Positions 52,311-58,207 of a DNA stretch of 64,000 nucleotides are shown here, in pieces. The notes below the pieces were generated by a model that ran no database searches, was not told the origin of the DNA, and saw nothing but the letters and a program-made list of their open reading frames with translations. Positions within the stretch are counted from its first letter, which is position 1; each line of letters starts with the position of its first letter. The position numbers and the translations under genes were made by a program. Source of the DNA: Thermotoga sp. Ku-13t (GTDB lineage Bacteria > Thermotogota > Thermotogae > Thermotogales > DSM-5069); NCBI RefSeq assembly GCF_011057685.1, contig NZ_LNFY01000001.1:682001-746000 (forward strand), written 5' to 3'.

Positions 52311-54200
52311 TCATTCGGTCATGTCTATCCATTCCACTAACTCTGTCGGGATCTTCTCGACGAAATCAGGTAACCTCATCCAGGAAAAGTAGTTCCTCTT
52401 CACCGATTCTTGTCTTAGAATGTAGAGCAATTCCTTCGCACGTGTTATGGCGACGTAGAAGATCCTCTCTTCCTCATCCAGCTTACCGTCCATTATGGCG
52501 TAATAGCTGGGGAAATCTCCAGGATTCACACTCAGAACGAACACCACGTCCCACTCCAGACCCTTCGCCTGATGCACTGTCGTCAGGGTGACCTTTCCCT
52601 TGCCCGGCTCCCGGGTCACATCTTCGCTGATCATCAAATCGGAGAGGAACCTCTCCAGGGATTTGTAGCGTTCAGCCATTTCGATCAACCTTTGTACGTC
52701 GAGCTGTCTTTCGACAAAGTCTGGATAGTTTTCTTCCAGATACTGCTTGTAAAAGCTTTCGTACAGACTCTCTATCTTTTTCGAAACACCCTCCTCTTGC
52801 AGCAGATGCGAGAAGATCTCACGGAGCTTTAGCAGGGATGGCTTTTTGGCTGGGAAACTTTCAAATATAATGTCTATGTCCATGGATTCCACCGAAGCCG
52901 CATGATCTGCAAAGGCGGAAGCCGTCTTCGCACCGACACCGGGGAACAATCTCGCCACTCTGATCCACGAAACCTTCTCTTTGGGATTCTGGACCAGCCT
53001 GAGGAAGGCCAGAACATCCTTAACGTGTGCTGTTTCTGTGAACCTCATTCCAGAGAGGATTCGAAAATCGATCTGGTTCCTGGTCAGTTCCATCTGTATA
53101 TCGAACGAATGTGAATGACTCCTGTAGAGGATACCTATCTGGCTGGGCTCGTAACCGAACTCGATCAGTCGCAGAATCTCTTTGGCCACGAAGCTCGCCT
53201 CGGCCGCTTTGTCCCACGTGCTGACTACCTTCGGTTTGACACCGTTGGGTTTGACCGATCTGAGCACCTTGGGCACACTGCTTCTCGGGATCATGGCGTT
53301 AACAAGTTCGACGATTCTTTCGGTACTTCTGTAGTTTGTCTGTATTTTGAATATCTTTGCGCCCGATCGAGCGAAATCTTTCACGTTTTCGAACCTCGCA
53401 CCTCTGAACGAATAGATACTCTGAGCATCGTCCGCCACAACGAACGCGTTTCCGTGCACGCTAGAAAGATAATCCACCAGTTTCAACTGCAGAACGTTCG
53501 TGTCCTGGAACTCATCCACCAGGAGCCATCTGTATTTTGAAGCTTCCCTCTGCTTGATATGAGGATCATTTTCGAGAAGGAAGACTGTCAAAGTTAAGAG
53601 ATCGTCGTAATCTACGCAGTTTTGCGTTTTCTTTTCGAGAGTGTATTCTCTGTAAATTTCCTCCACGATGTTTTCGAATTCCAGATGTTTCGGAAAGAGT
53701 GTTGACAGAGCCTCCCTGATGGAACTCAACGTGTTCGCACTATAAGAGAAAACTTTTTGAAGTATCGATGGCGATGGAAAGTGTTTTTCCTTCTCTTCGG
53801 TGAATATCCTGTCTAGGACCCTGGTCCTCACATGTTTGATGAGGCTCAGAGAGTCTTCTTCATCGAGTATCGTGAAATTGGGCGTCAATCCGACCCTGGG
53901 AGCGTACTTTCGGAGAATAAGGTTGCACACGTGGTGGAAGGTGCCTGCTGTCAGTTCCTCCAGGTCCATCCCTGTGACCTGCTTCGCGCGTTCGATCATC
54001 TCGTTCGCCGCAGCACGCGTGAACGTAACAAGCAGAACCTGCGAAGGCTTCACCCCGCTCATGAGTAGATGCAGCAGCTTGTACGTGATGACACGTGTTT
54101 TTCCAGAACCAGGTCCGGCGATCACCAGAGACCTTCCTGATGATTCGAGAACAGCTTTCCTTTGCTCCTCATCAAGTTCCTGAAGATAATCGACTTTCAC
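52311..54200 (-). CDS. uvrD: UvrD/PcrA/Rep-type DNA helicase
   Basis: 629-residue superfamily 1 helicase. LDEEQRKAVLESSGRSLVIAG-type Q motif, Walker A GPGSGKT, TFTRAAANEM (Ia), VDEFQDTNVLQ (II), VADDAQSIYSFRGA (III), NYRSTERIVE (IV), TVHQAKGLEWDVVFV (V) and VAITRAKELLYI (VI) are present. GTG 54200 is used (GGTGGTGA just upstream). Shorter than E. coli UvrD (720 aa); lacks the C-terminal tail. Likely mismatch/nucleotide-excision or replication-restart helicase. Confidence 0.88.
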   Translation of the reverse strand: MKVDYLQELDEEQRKAVLESSGRSLVIAGPGSGKTRVITYKLLHLLMSGVKPSQVLLVTFTRAAANEMIERAKQVTGMDLEELTAGTFHHVCNLILRKYAPRVGLTPNFTILDEEDSLSLIKHVRTRVLDRIFTEEKEKHFPSPSILQKVFSYSANTLSSIREALSTLFPKHLEFENIVEEIYREYTLEKKTQNCVDYDDLLTLTVFLLENDPHIKQREASKYRWLLVDEFQDTNVLQLKLVDYLSSVHGNAFVVADDAQSIYSFRGARFENVKDFARSGAKIFKIQTNYRSTERIVELVNAMIPRSSVPKVLRSVKPNGVKPKVVSTWDKAAEASFVAKEILRLIEFGYEPSQIGILYRSHSHSFDIQMELTRNQIDFRILSGMRFTETAHVKDVLAFLRLVQNPKEKVSWIRVARLFPGVGAKTASAFADHAASVESMDIDIIFESFPAKKPSLLKLREIFSHLLQEEGVSKKIESLYESFYKQYLEENYPDFVERQLDVQRLIEMAERYKSLERFLSDLMISEDVTREPGKGKVTLTTVHQAKGLEWDVVFVLSVNPGDFPSYYAIMDGKLDEEERIFYVAITRAKELLYILRQESVKRNYFSWMRLPDFVEKIPTELVEWIDMTE

Positions 54201-54213
54201 GTTTTCACCACCG

Positions 54214-57200
54214 TTAGAAAACATCGAGACCGACAGAACCTGTCACAGGATCGAAAGAAAAGCTCTTCTTCGGGAATTCCTTTATGAAGAATTTGAACGA
54301 TAATTTCTCCAGGCTGAATCCTCCGACCGTCGAAAAACTCGTTTCGAACACCAAACCCCAGCAGTGCAGATCCTTTGTCATGGCCAGATCCAGAGAACTG
54401 ATCTGAAAAGGTTGAATGCGACCAGAAAATGAAACCTTCACCGATGGGTCGAACCCCGACAATTCATAGGAAGCTTTCAACCTGTAAGAATTTCTGGTGT
54501 ATGTGAGAGATATGGCGTGTCTGGCAGATCCTGTGTAAAAAGATCCTCCCGCCTGCAGCGTCAGAAGATCGAAAGGTTGAACGTTCAGAGTGTAACGAAC
54601 CAACAGATCAGGCCTCTCCATGAACAAAAAGCTTTTACCTCTGATGCTCAACTTGTTTTCCAGCACATCGATGGGGATTTCTCTGTCGTAACGGTAAGTG
54701 AATTTCGTCTCGTGACTGAACGATCCAGCTCCAACATTTATATCCCAGTCTGTTCTGTCCAACTTCTCATTCTCGATTAGATACACCGTCTCTGTGTAGA
54801 TGGAAAAGCGCAGTGAGAAGAGGTCGAACGTGGTCGTGGTTTTGAACAGAAGATCATCCCATTTGAAACTGATCAGATCGTACCCTGTCGAAAGCTCGAA
54901 ACTACTGGTTGGAACTTTCAGGACCGCTGAAAATGTGGCTTTTGAAAGATCTGAAAGATCTGAAAAACCGGAATAGGTGACGTTGTTCAATGAGGCTCTG
55001 TTCTGATATATGACCGCGATGGAGAAGAAATCAACTGGCTTCAACGTGAAGTTCGCCTTACTCGTCTGCGAAAAGAGATACTCTGGTTCTTTCCCATGGG
55101 CGAGCCAGAGACCGGCGCGGAGAGCAGAATCGAACGAAATGTCGAACCAGCCTCCTCGCAACAGTGCAGTTCTCATGGGCAAGTTTGAATCTAGCTGGAA
55201 GTAATTCTTCGAGTAATTGTCCGTTATGCTTATTCCACTCAATTCGTAAGTGCCGTTCAGTGATAAATTGAGCTGCTTGAAGGCGTACGGGAGTTTCCAC
55301 CGGGCAGAAACGCTGTAGCGACCGAATGTGTAAAATTCATCAACGTGATCGAAAAGGCTACCTTCATTGTACTGGAGCGATGAAATATGCGAGAAATTGT
55401 TGATGGCCAGCAAGAAGGGTTCTTCCAGAACGGTGAATTTCTTTATTGAAACGCTTGGCATAGTCCAGCGAGTATAATCTTGAGACTTGCTGACGGAACT
55501 CTGGATTACGAAATCTTTCGTAGGGTTTAAGGTGTATTGGAACGAAAATCTCTCGTTACTGAAGTATGCATTCAGTTTTGAAAAAAGCGATGGTACAGTC
55601 AGCGTCGTGTTCATCTTATAGCTTCTTCCAGCTGGACCTTCGAGATTGTACACGCTCGTTGTGAGTTTCCAATTTTCCTGCTCGTAATTGAGCGTCAATT
55701 GAGAATAATTCCCGGCCTGATCGCCTTTCTCTCTGAAACCTATCCGCGTGGTCACGTAACCCTGCGGGAAGGTCACACTGTATAGGCTCTCCACACTGAA
55801 CCCTTCGTCTTTCGAATAACCCATTTTAACAGAGAACGGTTGCGGCCCTTCGCGCAGCGAAACGAAATAGACTGGTAAGTAAATGGTTGGTACGTCGTAG
55901 ATGTATAGCACCACGTTGTAGGCGGCCAGATACTCTTTCTCCTTTATCTCAACGTCAATCGCTTGAAGCCTGTAATGCGGTTTTTCAAACTCACACGTGG
56001 TCAGATAGGAAATGCTGAGCTGGGCAGATTCACCTCGCATTCTTGAAGATTCTGCCGCGAAATAGATCGTGTGCTTAACCTTCTCTTCATCTGTGAAGAT
56101 CGTTTTGCCCTTAGATTGAAGAACCAACGCTAGTTTTTCGGAAAACACGTACAGCAACTGTTGAGCTCTTATTTGTGTATCTTTTTTTGTGTAGAGCACG
56201 TTTCCTTCCGCGAGAATCTTTTCCACCTCATTTGAATCGTTCAGAAAAACCGTCAGCGTTGCAGACTGGATCGTCACATCTTCGTACCGAACCTCGACTC
56301 CATTTGAGAGGATCAGTCTTCCCTTCTCGACCAGCACGTTACCACCTTTCAGCTCCATCGTTCCAGCTTGAACTTGCGAGGCGAGGAAGACAACAAAAAC
56401 GATGACCAGAAACCTCGTCAGAAACTCCCTCAGTCTGTAACTGATCCTTGTGTCGAGCAGCACGAACAGCAAAGCTCCCACGATTCCAAAGCTCAGGTCT
56501 GGCAACCACGCTGCGAGGACAGGATCTATCAAACGTTCTTTCCCCATGGCACTGACCCAGGCACCTGAGCCCTGGTACAGCACGATCAAAGTGAACGTCA
56601 GTATGACGCCCCAGGACTTGCTTTTCAAATTGAACATGAGTGAGAGAGGAACGCCCACGAGGGCTATTATGATCGGACCCAGAGCGATGGAGTAGCGTGA
56701 ATGAAGTTCCACGATCCACGGTGCAGGATCTATTCCCAGCTTCTTGAGTGTAACTATTCTTTCTCTCAACTCCTCGCTCTTCATGTCCCTAGGAGTTTTC
56801 CCACTTCTCAAGATGGATTCGATGTCCTGTTTCAAATCGAGTTCCACTTTTGAAAAGCTCACATCGAACCTCAAAAAGCCGTCCTTATCGACCCTGTACA
56901 TCCGTCCGTCGTACATGAACCACTTGTCGTTCTCTTTCATCACACGACGTGCAGTGATGATTTCTTCCTCAGAAGGTTCGTTCCTGAACAGCACGACGTT
57001 CTCAAGTATCCCATTTTGCCTGTCATATTTCTTCACGTAAAAGTATTGGTTCTCATCGACTTTGGTAAGCACGTTCTCGCTGATGAAGACTTCGGGTTTT
57101 CTGTAAACGTACTTCGAGAGCACCTGGTCAGCCTTCTGATTGAAAACGGGAACGATCCTGTCGTTGAGCATATACGCGACAAGGCTGAGAACTGCACCGA

Positions 57201-57516
57201 GCAACAAGAATGGAACGATCAGCACTTTCAAGGAGATCCCGTGCACCTGCATGGCCATGAGTTCACGATCGTTTGACAGCTTTGACAGCACCCAGAACAC
57301 GGCAAGTAGGATTCCCACAGGTACACCGAGCGCTGTGAAATAGGGAAGATAGTAGTACAGGATTCTCAGCAGAACAAAGAAACTCACCCTGTGTCTGACG
57401 ATCAGATCGGAAAGCTGGTAGAGGATTTCTACACTGACGAAGATTATGAACCCACCGAGTCCGATCAACACGGGGCCCAGGGAGAGCTTGAACAGATATT
57501 TAATCAGAATCGTCAA
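54214..57516 (-). CDS. LptF/LptG-type permease fused to an LptA/LptD-like outer-membrane protein
   Basis: 1100 residues in one uninterrupted frame. Residues 1-355 form a YjgP/YjgQ (LptF/G) permease: helices near 8-32, 47-78 and 97-116, a periplasmic beta region 118-270, helices near 275-296, 303-323 and 337-354. Residues 361-384 (RLREFLTRFLVIVFVVFLASQVQA) look like a signal peptide with a V-x-A cleavage site. Residues 385-505 are OstA/LptA-like; 506-560 carry LptD features (TTCEFEKPHYRLQA, LYIYDVPTIYLPVYFVSL); the rest is beta-barrel-like and ends in Phe. TTG start with GGGAGGG 8 bases upstream, overlapping phoU by 17 bases. Possibly a polyprotein cut into inner- and outer-membrane parts. Confidence 0.85.
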   Translation of the reverse strand: MTILIKYLFKLSLGPVLIGLGGFIIFVSVEILYQLSDLIVRHRVSFFVLLRILYYYLPYFTALGVPVGILLAVFWVLSKLSNDRELMAMQVHGISLKVLIVPFLLLGAVLSLVAYMLNDRIVPVFNQKADQVLSKYVYRKPEVFISENVLTKVDENQYFYVKKYDRQNGILENVVLFRNEPSEEEIITARRVMKENDKWFMYDGRMYRVDKDGFLRFDVSFSKVELDLKQDIESILRSGKTPRDMKSEELRERIVTLKKLGIDPAPWIVELHSRYSIALGPIIIALVGVPLSLMFNLKSKSWGVILTFTLIVLYQGSGAWVSAMGKERLIDPVLAAWLPDLSFGIVGALLFVLLDTRISYRLREFLTRFLVIVFVVFLASQVQAGTMELKGGNVLVEKGRLILSNGVEVRYEDVTIQSATLTVFLNDSNEVEKILAEGNVLYTKKDTQIRAQQLLYVFSEKLALVLQSKGKTIFTDEEKVKHTIYFAAESSRMRGESAQLSISYLTTCEFEKPHYRLQAIDVEIKEKEYLAAYNVVLYIYDVPTIYLPVYFVSLREGPQPFSVKMGYSKDEGFSVESLYSVTFPQGYVTTRIGFREKGDQAGNYSQLTLNYEQENWKLTTSVYNLEGPAGRSYKMNTTLTVPSLFSKLNAYFSNERFSFQYTLNPTKDFVIQSSVSKSQDYTRWTMPSVSIKKFTVLEEPFLLAINNFSHISSLQYNEGSLFDHVDEFYTFGRYSVSARWKLPYAFKQLNLSLNGTYELSGISITDNYSKNYFQLDSNLPMRTALLRGGWFDISFDSALRAGLWLAHGKEPEYLFSQTSKANFTLKPVDFFSIAVIYQNRASLNNVTYSGFSDLSDLSKATFSAVLKVPTSSFELSTGYDLISFKWDDLLFKTTTTFDLFSLRFSIYTETVYLIENEKLDRTDWDINVGAGSFSHETKFTYRYDREIPIDVLENKLSIRGKSFLFMERPDLLVRYTLNVQPFDLLTLQAGGSFYTGSARHAISLTYTRNSYRLKASYELSGFDPSVKVSFSGRIQPFQISSLDLAMTKDLHCWGLVFETSFSTVGGFSLEKLSFKFFIKEFPKKSFSFDPVTGSVGLDVF

Positions 57517-58207
57517 ACAGAACGCCCTCCCTGCCTTTGAACGGCTTCATCTGATCTTTGAAACACTTGTAGTTTTCACCCAAGATGGCGTACAACACGG
57601 CTTCAACAACGTTCGTACAGAGGTCCGCTATCTCTTCGAGCTCGCGTGCGATCTCCAGAAGACATAGGGCACGCTCCAGTTGTTCGGGTTTCTCATTCAA
57701 CAGGTTGATGAACTCTAACCTCACTTCCTGAAAGAATTCGTCTATTTCGTCGTCTTTCGTGCATATCTCGAAAGCGGCCTCCGATCGCATATCGGCCATG
57801 ACACCGAGAGTTTCTTTGAGGAGTCCTGCCACATTCTTAGCCATCCTGATGATCTTAGGATCAACGTTCGCAGACTGTTCTCTGTAGAAAGAGAGCAGAA
57901 TCTGGGCAATTCTGCGCGTTCTATCGCCTATCTTCTCGAGGGTGTTCGCCACCTCAACCGAACTGATGAGGAATCTGAGGTTGAAACCCGTGGGAGCATG
58001 TGTACCGAGTACGACCGCGGCCTCTTCCCTGAGCTCGACTTCCATCGCATCGAGCACATCGTCGTCCTCAACAACCTGTTTTGCGGAGGCACTCTGCCTG
58101 TTTTCCATCGATTCTATGACCCTCATCATCATTTTCTCGGTGAACCAGCCCATCTTCATGAGAGCCCTTTTGAACCTCTCCACCTTCTGATCGAGCAACC
58201 ACCTCAA
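57500..58207 (-). CDS. phoU: PhoU-family protein
   Basis: 235 residues, all helical, with two PhoU repeats: VEVANTLEKIGDRTRRIAQILL near 95-115 and LEIARELEEIADLCTNVVEAVLYA near 185-210, each with the conserved ExxxD metal-binding pattern. PhoU proteins restrain phosphate uptake and PhoR signalling or partner Na/phosphate symporters. No pst genes are nearby. TTG start overlaps the nadK stop. Confidence 0.87.
   Translation of the reverse strand: MRWLLDQKVERFKRALMKMGWFTEKMMMRVIESMENRQSASAKQVVEDDDVLDAMEVELREEAAVVLGTHAPTGFNLRFLISSVEVANTLEKIGDRTRRIAQILLSFYREQSANVDPKIIRMAKNVAGLLKETLGVMADMRSEAAFEICTKDDEIDEFFQEVRLEFINLLNEKPEQLERALCLLEIARELEEIADLCTNVVEAVLYAILGENYKCFKDQMKPFKGREGVLFDDSD

Follow-up and report, generated by a model that had tools for sequence, protein, structure and literature searches.

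The window analysed here, a 64,000-nucleotide stretch of the Thermotoga sp. Ku-13t genome (contig NZ_LNFY01000001.1, positions 682,001 to 746,000), contains a single open reading frame (ORF) in which a permease of the LptF/G family is joined in frame to LptD, two parts of the lipopolysaccharide (LPS) transport (Lpt) machinery. Thermotogota are heat-loving bacteria that live inside a loose outer sheath, the toga. The LptF/G–LptD fusion is real and is conserved across the phylum, and the join is read through in one frame in 97 of 99 informative Thermotogota genomes, many of them single-contig. A single cut of the fusion product by signal peptidase, between A384 and G385, is likely; it would leave a permease in the inner membrane and free LptD for the outer membrane.

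The ORF has a TTG start codon and encodes 1100 amino acids (aa) in the ORF list of the window; the plus strand of the same interval is interrupted by stops. The genome carrying it is 2.08 Mb in size and 99.5% complete. A sequence-only reading of this DNA had described a six-helix LptF/G permease followed by an internal signal peptide, an LptA-like domain and an LptD-like barrel, and this architecture is borne out by profiles, by a predicted structure and its comparison with solved ones, and by phylum-wide conservation. The coordinates it gave, 54214–57516, were right; the strand, which it did not give, is minus. The features are collected in Table 1.

Table 1. Features of the fusion ORF, in window coordinates.
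Feature	Coordinates	Strand	Basis
Whole ORF: LptF/G permease, internal signal peptide and LptD; 1100 aa, TTG start	54214..57516	-	ORF list, profiles, predicted model
LptF/G permease, residues 1–355: coupling glutamate E85, six predicted membrane helices with a beta-domain between the third and fourth	56452..57516	-	
Predicted periplasmic beta-domain of permease, residues 149–226	56839..57072	-	strands in predicted model
Internal signal peptide (very likely), residues 361–384: basic permease tail, hydrophobic core, V-Q-A; predicted cut A384/G385 (56365/56364)	56365..56436	-	column statistics in 92 genomes, equivalent N-terminal segment of standalone LptDs, lowest-confidence model stretch
LptA-like periplasmic domain of LptD, residues 385–560	55837..56364	-	
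Predicted outer-membrane barrel of LptD, residues 561–1100	54217..55836	-	predicted models and structure comparison
Cys508 in TTC motif, aligned to C173 of E. coli LptD	55993..55995	-	Cys in 58/58 LptDs
Cys1052 in LHCW motif, likely counterpart of E. coli C725 and partner of Cys508	54361..54363	-	Cys in 50/58 LptDs; C724/C725 matched by eye

A head-to-tail join of two nearly complete proteins

The Pfam LptF_LptG profile matches residues 6–351 of the ORF over profile positions 1–351 of 353 (E 1.3e-78, 264.9 bits), and the predicted model, in which a periplasmic beta-domain separates the third and fourth of six membrane helices, matches solved LptF/G chains. E85 aligns with the coupling-helix glutamate, given as E84 in LptF and E88 in LptG in the available part of PMC10094684, and is invariant in 32 of 32 sequences. 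The NCBIfam equivalog cut-offs are missed for both proteins (LptF, 151 against 230; LptG, 136.7 against 240), and we therefore regard the permease as a member of the LptF/G family that is assignable to neither.

Alignment with hhalign extends the permease to residue 363 of the 366 in LptF, and the LptD match begins at residues 383–387 of the fusion, corresponding to about residues 48–52 of Escherichia coli LptD (structures 9a39, 9kn3, 9ia0 and 9ia5). The ORF thus consists of two nearly complete proteins. At the join itself, the C-terminus of E. coli LptF (...NLWDTVPVRRLRASFSRKGAV) aligns with ...VLLDTRISYRLREFLTRF of the fusion protein, which continues directly as LVIVFVVFLASQVQA-G. Solved structures of LptF/G and of LptD are both matched by the full-length predicted model, across most of the length of each.

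The second half of the fusion is very likely LptD. In the predicted models an LptA-like domain at its N-terminus leads into a large barrel, so that the lack of a barrel in residues 560–1100, which the sequence-only reading had named as fatal to its proposal, is not what is predicted. LptD structures rank first among the structural matches, and a profile of the family finds E. coli LptD with an E value of 6.7e-06. The query alone gives a weak match to an LptD model (residues 486–574, E 7.8e-06). Several observations weigh against this assignment. Alone, the query scores 14.2 bits against LptD_N, below the cut-off of 20.4; PF04453, the Pfam LptD barrel, has zero matches in the genome; the predicted model has a pTM of 0.64 for the LptD part and 0.48 at full length; and the rmsd to LptD is large (6.8–10.5 among the top three matches). 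PF04453 is a narrow model, since the same search was positive in just 2 of 14 control genomes. The C-terminal half could instead be a barrel with another job, such as a porin or sheath protein, that merely resembles LptD, but the profile match and the structure ranking make this very unlikely.

In E. coli LptD a disulfide between C173 and C725 links the N-terminal domain with the end of the barrel (PMC8423444, available part). Conservation of the likely equivalent cysteines in the fusion (Table 1) was counted in 58 rows, comprising the query, 56 genomes and the standalone LptD of genome G005 described below. The column of Cys1052 is His or Lys in the remaining 8 rows, a further point against. 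The replacements (LHHW, LHKW) occur in G077, G079, G080, G081, G082 and G084 of family f2 and in G086 and G087 of f3, and the predicted disulfide seems to be lost or moved in those genomes. The terminal phenylalanine to which the sequence-only reading had drawn attention is present (F1100), but it is not a feature of the family: mature LptDs end in F in 32 of 58 cases and in M in 24, and we consider it a weak barrel signature. The LptD part also varies in length, and in family f9 (L099, L107, L110 and L123) the fused frames are about 1450–1490 aa, with an LptD part about 350 aa longer than that of the query.

The fusion is conserved across Thermotogota

The permease is present in 100 of 103 Thermotogota genomes. 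Of these 100, 94 entered the join count. The six others are G005 and G054, which are split, G001, which is cut short, G041 and G093, whose frames are broken, and G097, where 44 residues remain before the contig ends. The 97 genomes that read through the join are these 94 together with G097, which does so as far as its contig runs, and with G093 and G041, in which the frame is broken away from the join; G001 ends before the join and so is not informative. A permease match is absent from G004, G032 and G055, and LptD pieces lie at contig ends in G004 and G055, with none in G032. Approached from the other end, 83 frames with a complete LptD were kept from 111 loci, and the permease is in the same frame in 81 of them; the other two, L061 and L086, are seemingly one contig represented twice (equal length, equal scores). 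Alignment A2 comprised 55 of 60 references (without L052, L063, L099, L107 and L110), the LptD of the window and 13 full-length P proteins.

Two informative genomes carry the halves apart. In G054, a single metagenome-derived genome, the permease stops after EPLKRLLG and, 4 bases on, an ATG opens MHLRYKSFSPVLFIISLFFIILSGTKVFSATAYID..., an LptD with a signal peptide; the start codon of this separate LptD is missing from the fused relatives. The split locus is apparently on the contig of L061, JAKJGQ010000064.1. In a permease tree built by a quick method (104 rows, without G001, G014, G041, G093 and G096), G054 is nested among fused relatives in a 19-row group (SH-aLRT 100), which points to a later split in this genome. 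The neighbouring halves of G054 would fit two genes joined in the window by a sequencing or assembly error, but given the count of fused genomes and the position of G054 within them we reject this explanation, and give it practically no weight. The sequence-only reading had held that homologues split at the same place, with an error joining them here, would undermine the fusion; splits are confined to 2 of the 99 informative genomes, and they are not errors that would undo it in the others.

In G005, lptF and lptG are separate and adjacent, and LptD is on another contig, beginning MVIKKFKKNQIFHILILIILLIPLMAFTQDEN... (L084, L199). The two permeases of this genome form long basal branches in the permease tree, which is compatible both with one early fusion that was later lost in G005 and with a fusion younger than the line leading to G005. 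A search with the G005 LptD gave 12 standalone LptDs of 820–883 aa, with an N-terminal signal peptide visible as annotated in seven. These signal peptides end in, for example, ...FSTSLFS/EN or ...INTGFS/QD (cut sites placed by eye), and many of the internal copies have the same ending.

A whole-database protein search returned 64 matches, of which 31 are fused or partial copies and the others are permeases of about 780–830 aa; scoring in the protein searches was limited to the 7993 and 7997 candidates with the most shared words, and the second listed the best 120 of 125. One protein, P0129 (1188 aa), is a divergent fusion matching the permease, LptA and LptD profiles; it may lie outside Thermotogota, and the fused design may extend beyond the phylum. 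P0129 has its own internal signal-peptide-like stretch, as well as TTC and CNCW cysteines.

The join contains a predicted internal signal peptide

Residues 361–384 of the fusion are RLREFLTRFLVIVFVVFLASQVQA, with V-Q-A at 382–384 followed by G385. We consider this segment very likely to be a signal peptide: standalone LptDs of two lineages bear an equivalent segment at the N-terminus, after the start codon. The case rests on these natural splits and on a test of aligned columns in 92 of the 94 genomes in the join count. Relative to the start of LptD, 81 of the 92 genomes have A, G or S at position -1, a count over aligned columns that has no shuffle control of its own; F, Q or Y is found at position -2 in 59; and S, G or T occupies position -6 in 53 and position -5 in 63. 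Columns -7 to -14 are 77–96% hydrophobic and almost free of charge, and in the loop preceding the segment K and R outnumber D and E in 90 of 94 genomes. In the full-length model pLDDT falls below 50 solely at residues 381–384.

Some properties of the segment argue the other way. Position -1 is something other than A, G or S in 11 of the 92 genomes. A loose form of the -3/-1 rule is satisfied in 89 of 94 genomes, but shuffling yields nearly the same frequency (79.8 expected), and we dropped this motif as proof of cleavage. The segment is also as hydrophobic as true membrane helices (median best 19-residue hydropathy 2.1) and could for that reason stay uncut; hydropathy does not discriminate between a signal peptide and an anchor.

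The sequence-only reading had proposed either a cleaved polyprotein or an intact covalent bridge, and it is the first of these that is better supported, as a prediction. In the uncut form a seventh helix would keep the periplasmic domain of LptD at the inner membrane while the barrel sits in the outer membrane. The single frame throughout the phylum and the hydrophobicity of the segment are consistent with this arrangement. However, residues 385–560 alone would then span the gap, about the portion that LptD itself contributes in E. coli in addition to LptC and LptA; the genome retains a separate LptA/C-like gene; LptD stands alone in two lineages; and the small residue at -1 would be left without a role. 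We therefore favor cleavage: the LptD part lacks any added periplasmic spacer, the LptA/C-like protein still has a gene of its own, and the existence of standalone LptDs indicates that LptD does not need attachment to the permease. An uncut bridge is unlikely.

If the product is cut, the basic cytoplasmic tail of the permease (DTRISYRLREFLTRF) would double as the positive start of the LptD signal peptide, and the hydrophobic stretch that follows would start a second translocation by Sec. Signal peptidase I would cut behind V-Q-A, and the permease would keep the stub as its seventh helix. The Omp85 protein of the genome would fold LptD into the outer membrane, and a C508–C1052 disulfide would lock it. 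The pump would consist of two permease copies with LptB2, and the separate LptA/C-like protein would form the bridge to LptD, with a non-LPS glycolipid as cargo.

Other Lpt components and the cargo

As a check, the sequence-only reading had named the presence of the same architecture and of lptB and lptC homologues in Thermotogota genomes; the fusion is widespread, as described above, and LptB is over the cut-off in 98 of 103 genomes. The lptB gene (L098:5861-7047, G000:C1) shares 4 bases with the final part of a gene for an OmpH/Skp-like chaperone (PF03938, E 8.4e-20), which ties lptB to outer-membrane building. A separate LptA/C-like protein of 206 aa, with its own signal-peptide-like start, is present in the same genome as the fusion, and Pfam LptD_N, common to the starts of LptA and LptD, is positive in 92 of 103 genomes. 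The gene for this protein (L097:4604-6421, G000:C11) lies immediately behind a coiled-coil gene that has an SLH match below the cut-off and resembles the toga anchor Omp-alpha. The genome encodes one Omp85 protein.

No separate membrane-anchored LptC was recognised in this genome. According to the available part of PMC9972910, E. coli is viable without LptC after changes in LptF, and a machine without a classical LptC is thus plausible. LptE, the plug of LptD, had no match in this genome, a point against the scheme proposed above; LptE is described as poorly conserved in the part of PMC10353723 available.

LpxC, of the lipid A synthesis that would supply LPS, was found in 0 of 103 Thermotogota genomes by a search that was positive in 4 of 14 control genomes. 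With LptB so widespread and LpxC missing, the cargo is probably a non-LPS glycolipid. This draws on the analogy in PMC10353723, which, in the part available, proposes that Lpt carries glycolipids in diderms that lack LPS and attributes both Lpt orthologues and glycolipids to T. maritima. Taken as a whole, we tentatively suggest a phylum-wide polyprotein in which the tail of the pump starts the LptD signal peptide, a single signal-peptidase cut sends the second half to the outer membrane, the leftover helix replaces the membrane helix of LptC, and a minimal Lpt machine (LptB, LptF/G, one LptA/C and LptD) coats the toga with a non-LPS glycolipid; this full scheme is less likely than not.

The neighbours of the fusion gene are housekeeping genes. 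It shares 17 bases with the upstream PhoU-domain ORF (57500..58207) and 11 bases with the downstream UvrD-type helicase ORF (52311..54224), and the locus also encodes an NAD kinase, YggT, an alanine-racemase-like protein and an SMC/RecN-type protein. The local context is accordingly uninformative on lipid export.

Relation to previous work

A 16-gene survey records Thermotogae as lacking nearly all of the outer-membrane genes studied, bamA excepted (PMC8871954, available part), and PMC10353723, in the part available, cites Putker et al. 2015 for T. maritima Lpt orthologues. Distant homology, together with annotation under a permease name (YjgP/YjgQ or LptF/LptG family), would explain why LptD was not recorded earlier. 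We found no description of an LptF/G–LptD fusion in the literature searched, whose coverage of Lpt reviews is incomplete, so that an earlier notice is possible. The components of the system are familiar, and the surprise lies in the design of the gene and in its use, without LPS, throughout the phylum.

These observations place a near-complete trans-envelope lipid exporter, including LptD, in a phylum for which that survey recorded almost none of its outer-membrane genes other than bamA. The exporter supports the view that the toga is a true, lipid-decorated outer membrane, and Thermotogota become an added LPS-free lineage for the question of what the first Lpt cargo was. If cleavage is correct, an inner-membrane pump and an outer-membrane gate would be made in a fixed ratio from one chain by way of an internal signal peptide, an unusual gene design.

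Comparison with known systems

Borrelia burgdorferi likewise has an Lpt system in an LPS-free diderm with a proposed glycolipid cargo, but LptF, LptG and LptD are encoded there by separate genes (PMC10353723, available part). The diderm Firmicutes share a single LptF/G homologue in place of two, but LptD is reported as not found in them in the part of PMC5007114 available, whereas here it is joined to the permease.

The system of E. coli shares with that of Thermotogota the permease fold and coupling glutamate, LptB, an LptA/C-like protein, and an LptD with an LptA-like domain, a predicted barrel and a likely equivalent of the C173–C725 disulfide. It differs in that permease and LptD form one gene in Thermotogota; in the genome of the window there is one permease gene rather than two, no LptE was found and no separate membrane-anchored LptC was recognised, and LpxC was found in none of the 103 genomes.

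A parallel to the gene design is FbcH, the cytochrome b/c1 precursor of Bradyrhizobium, in which cleavage of an internal signal peptide behind a multi-helix membrane protein frees a second protein. Both FbcH products remain at the inner membrane, whereas one product of the Thermotogota fusion would reach the outer membrane.
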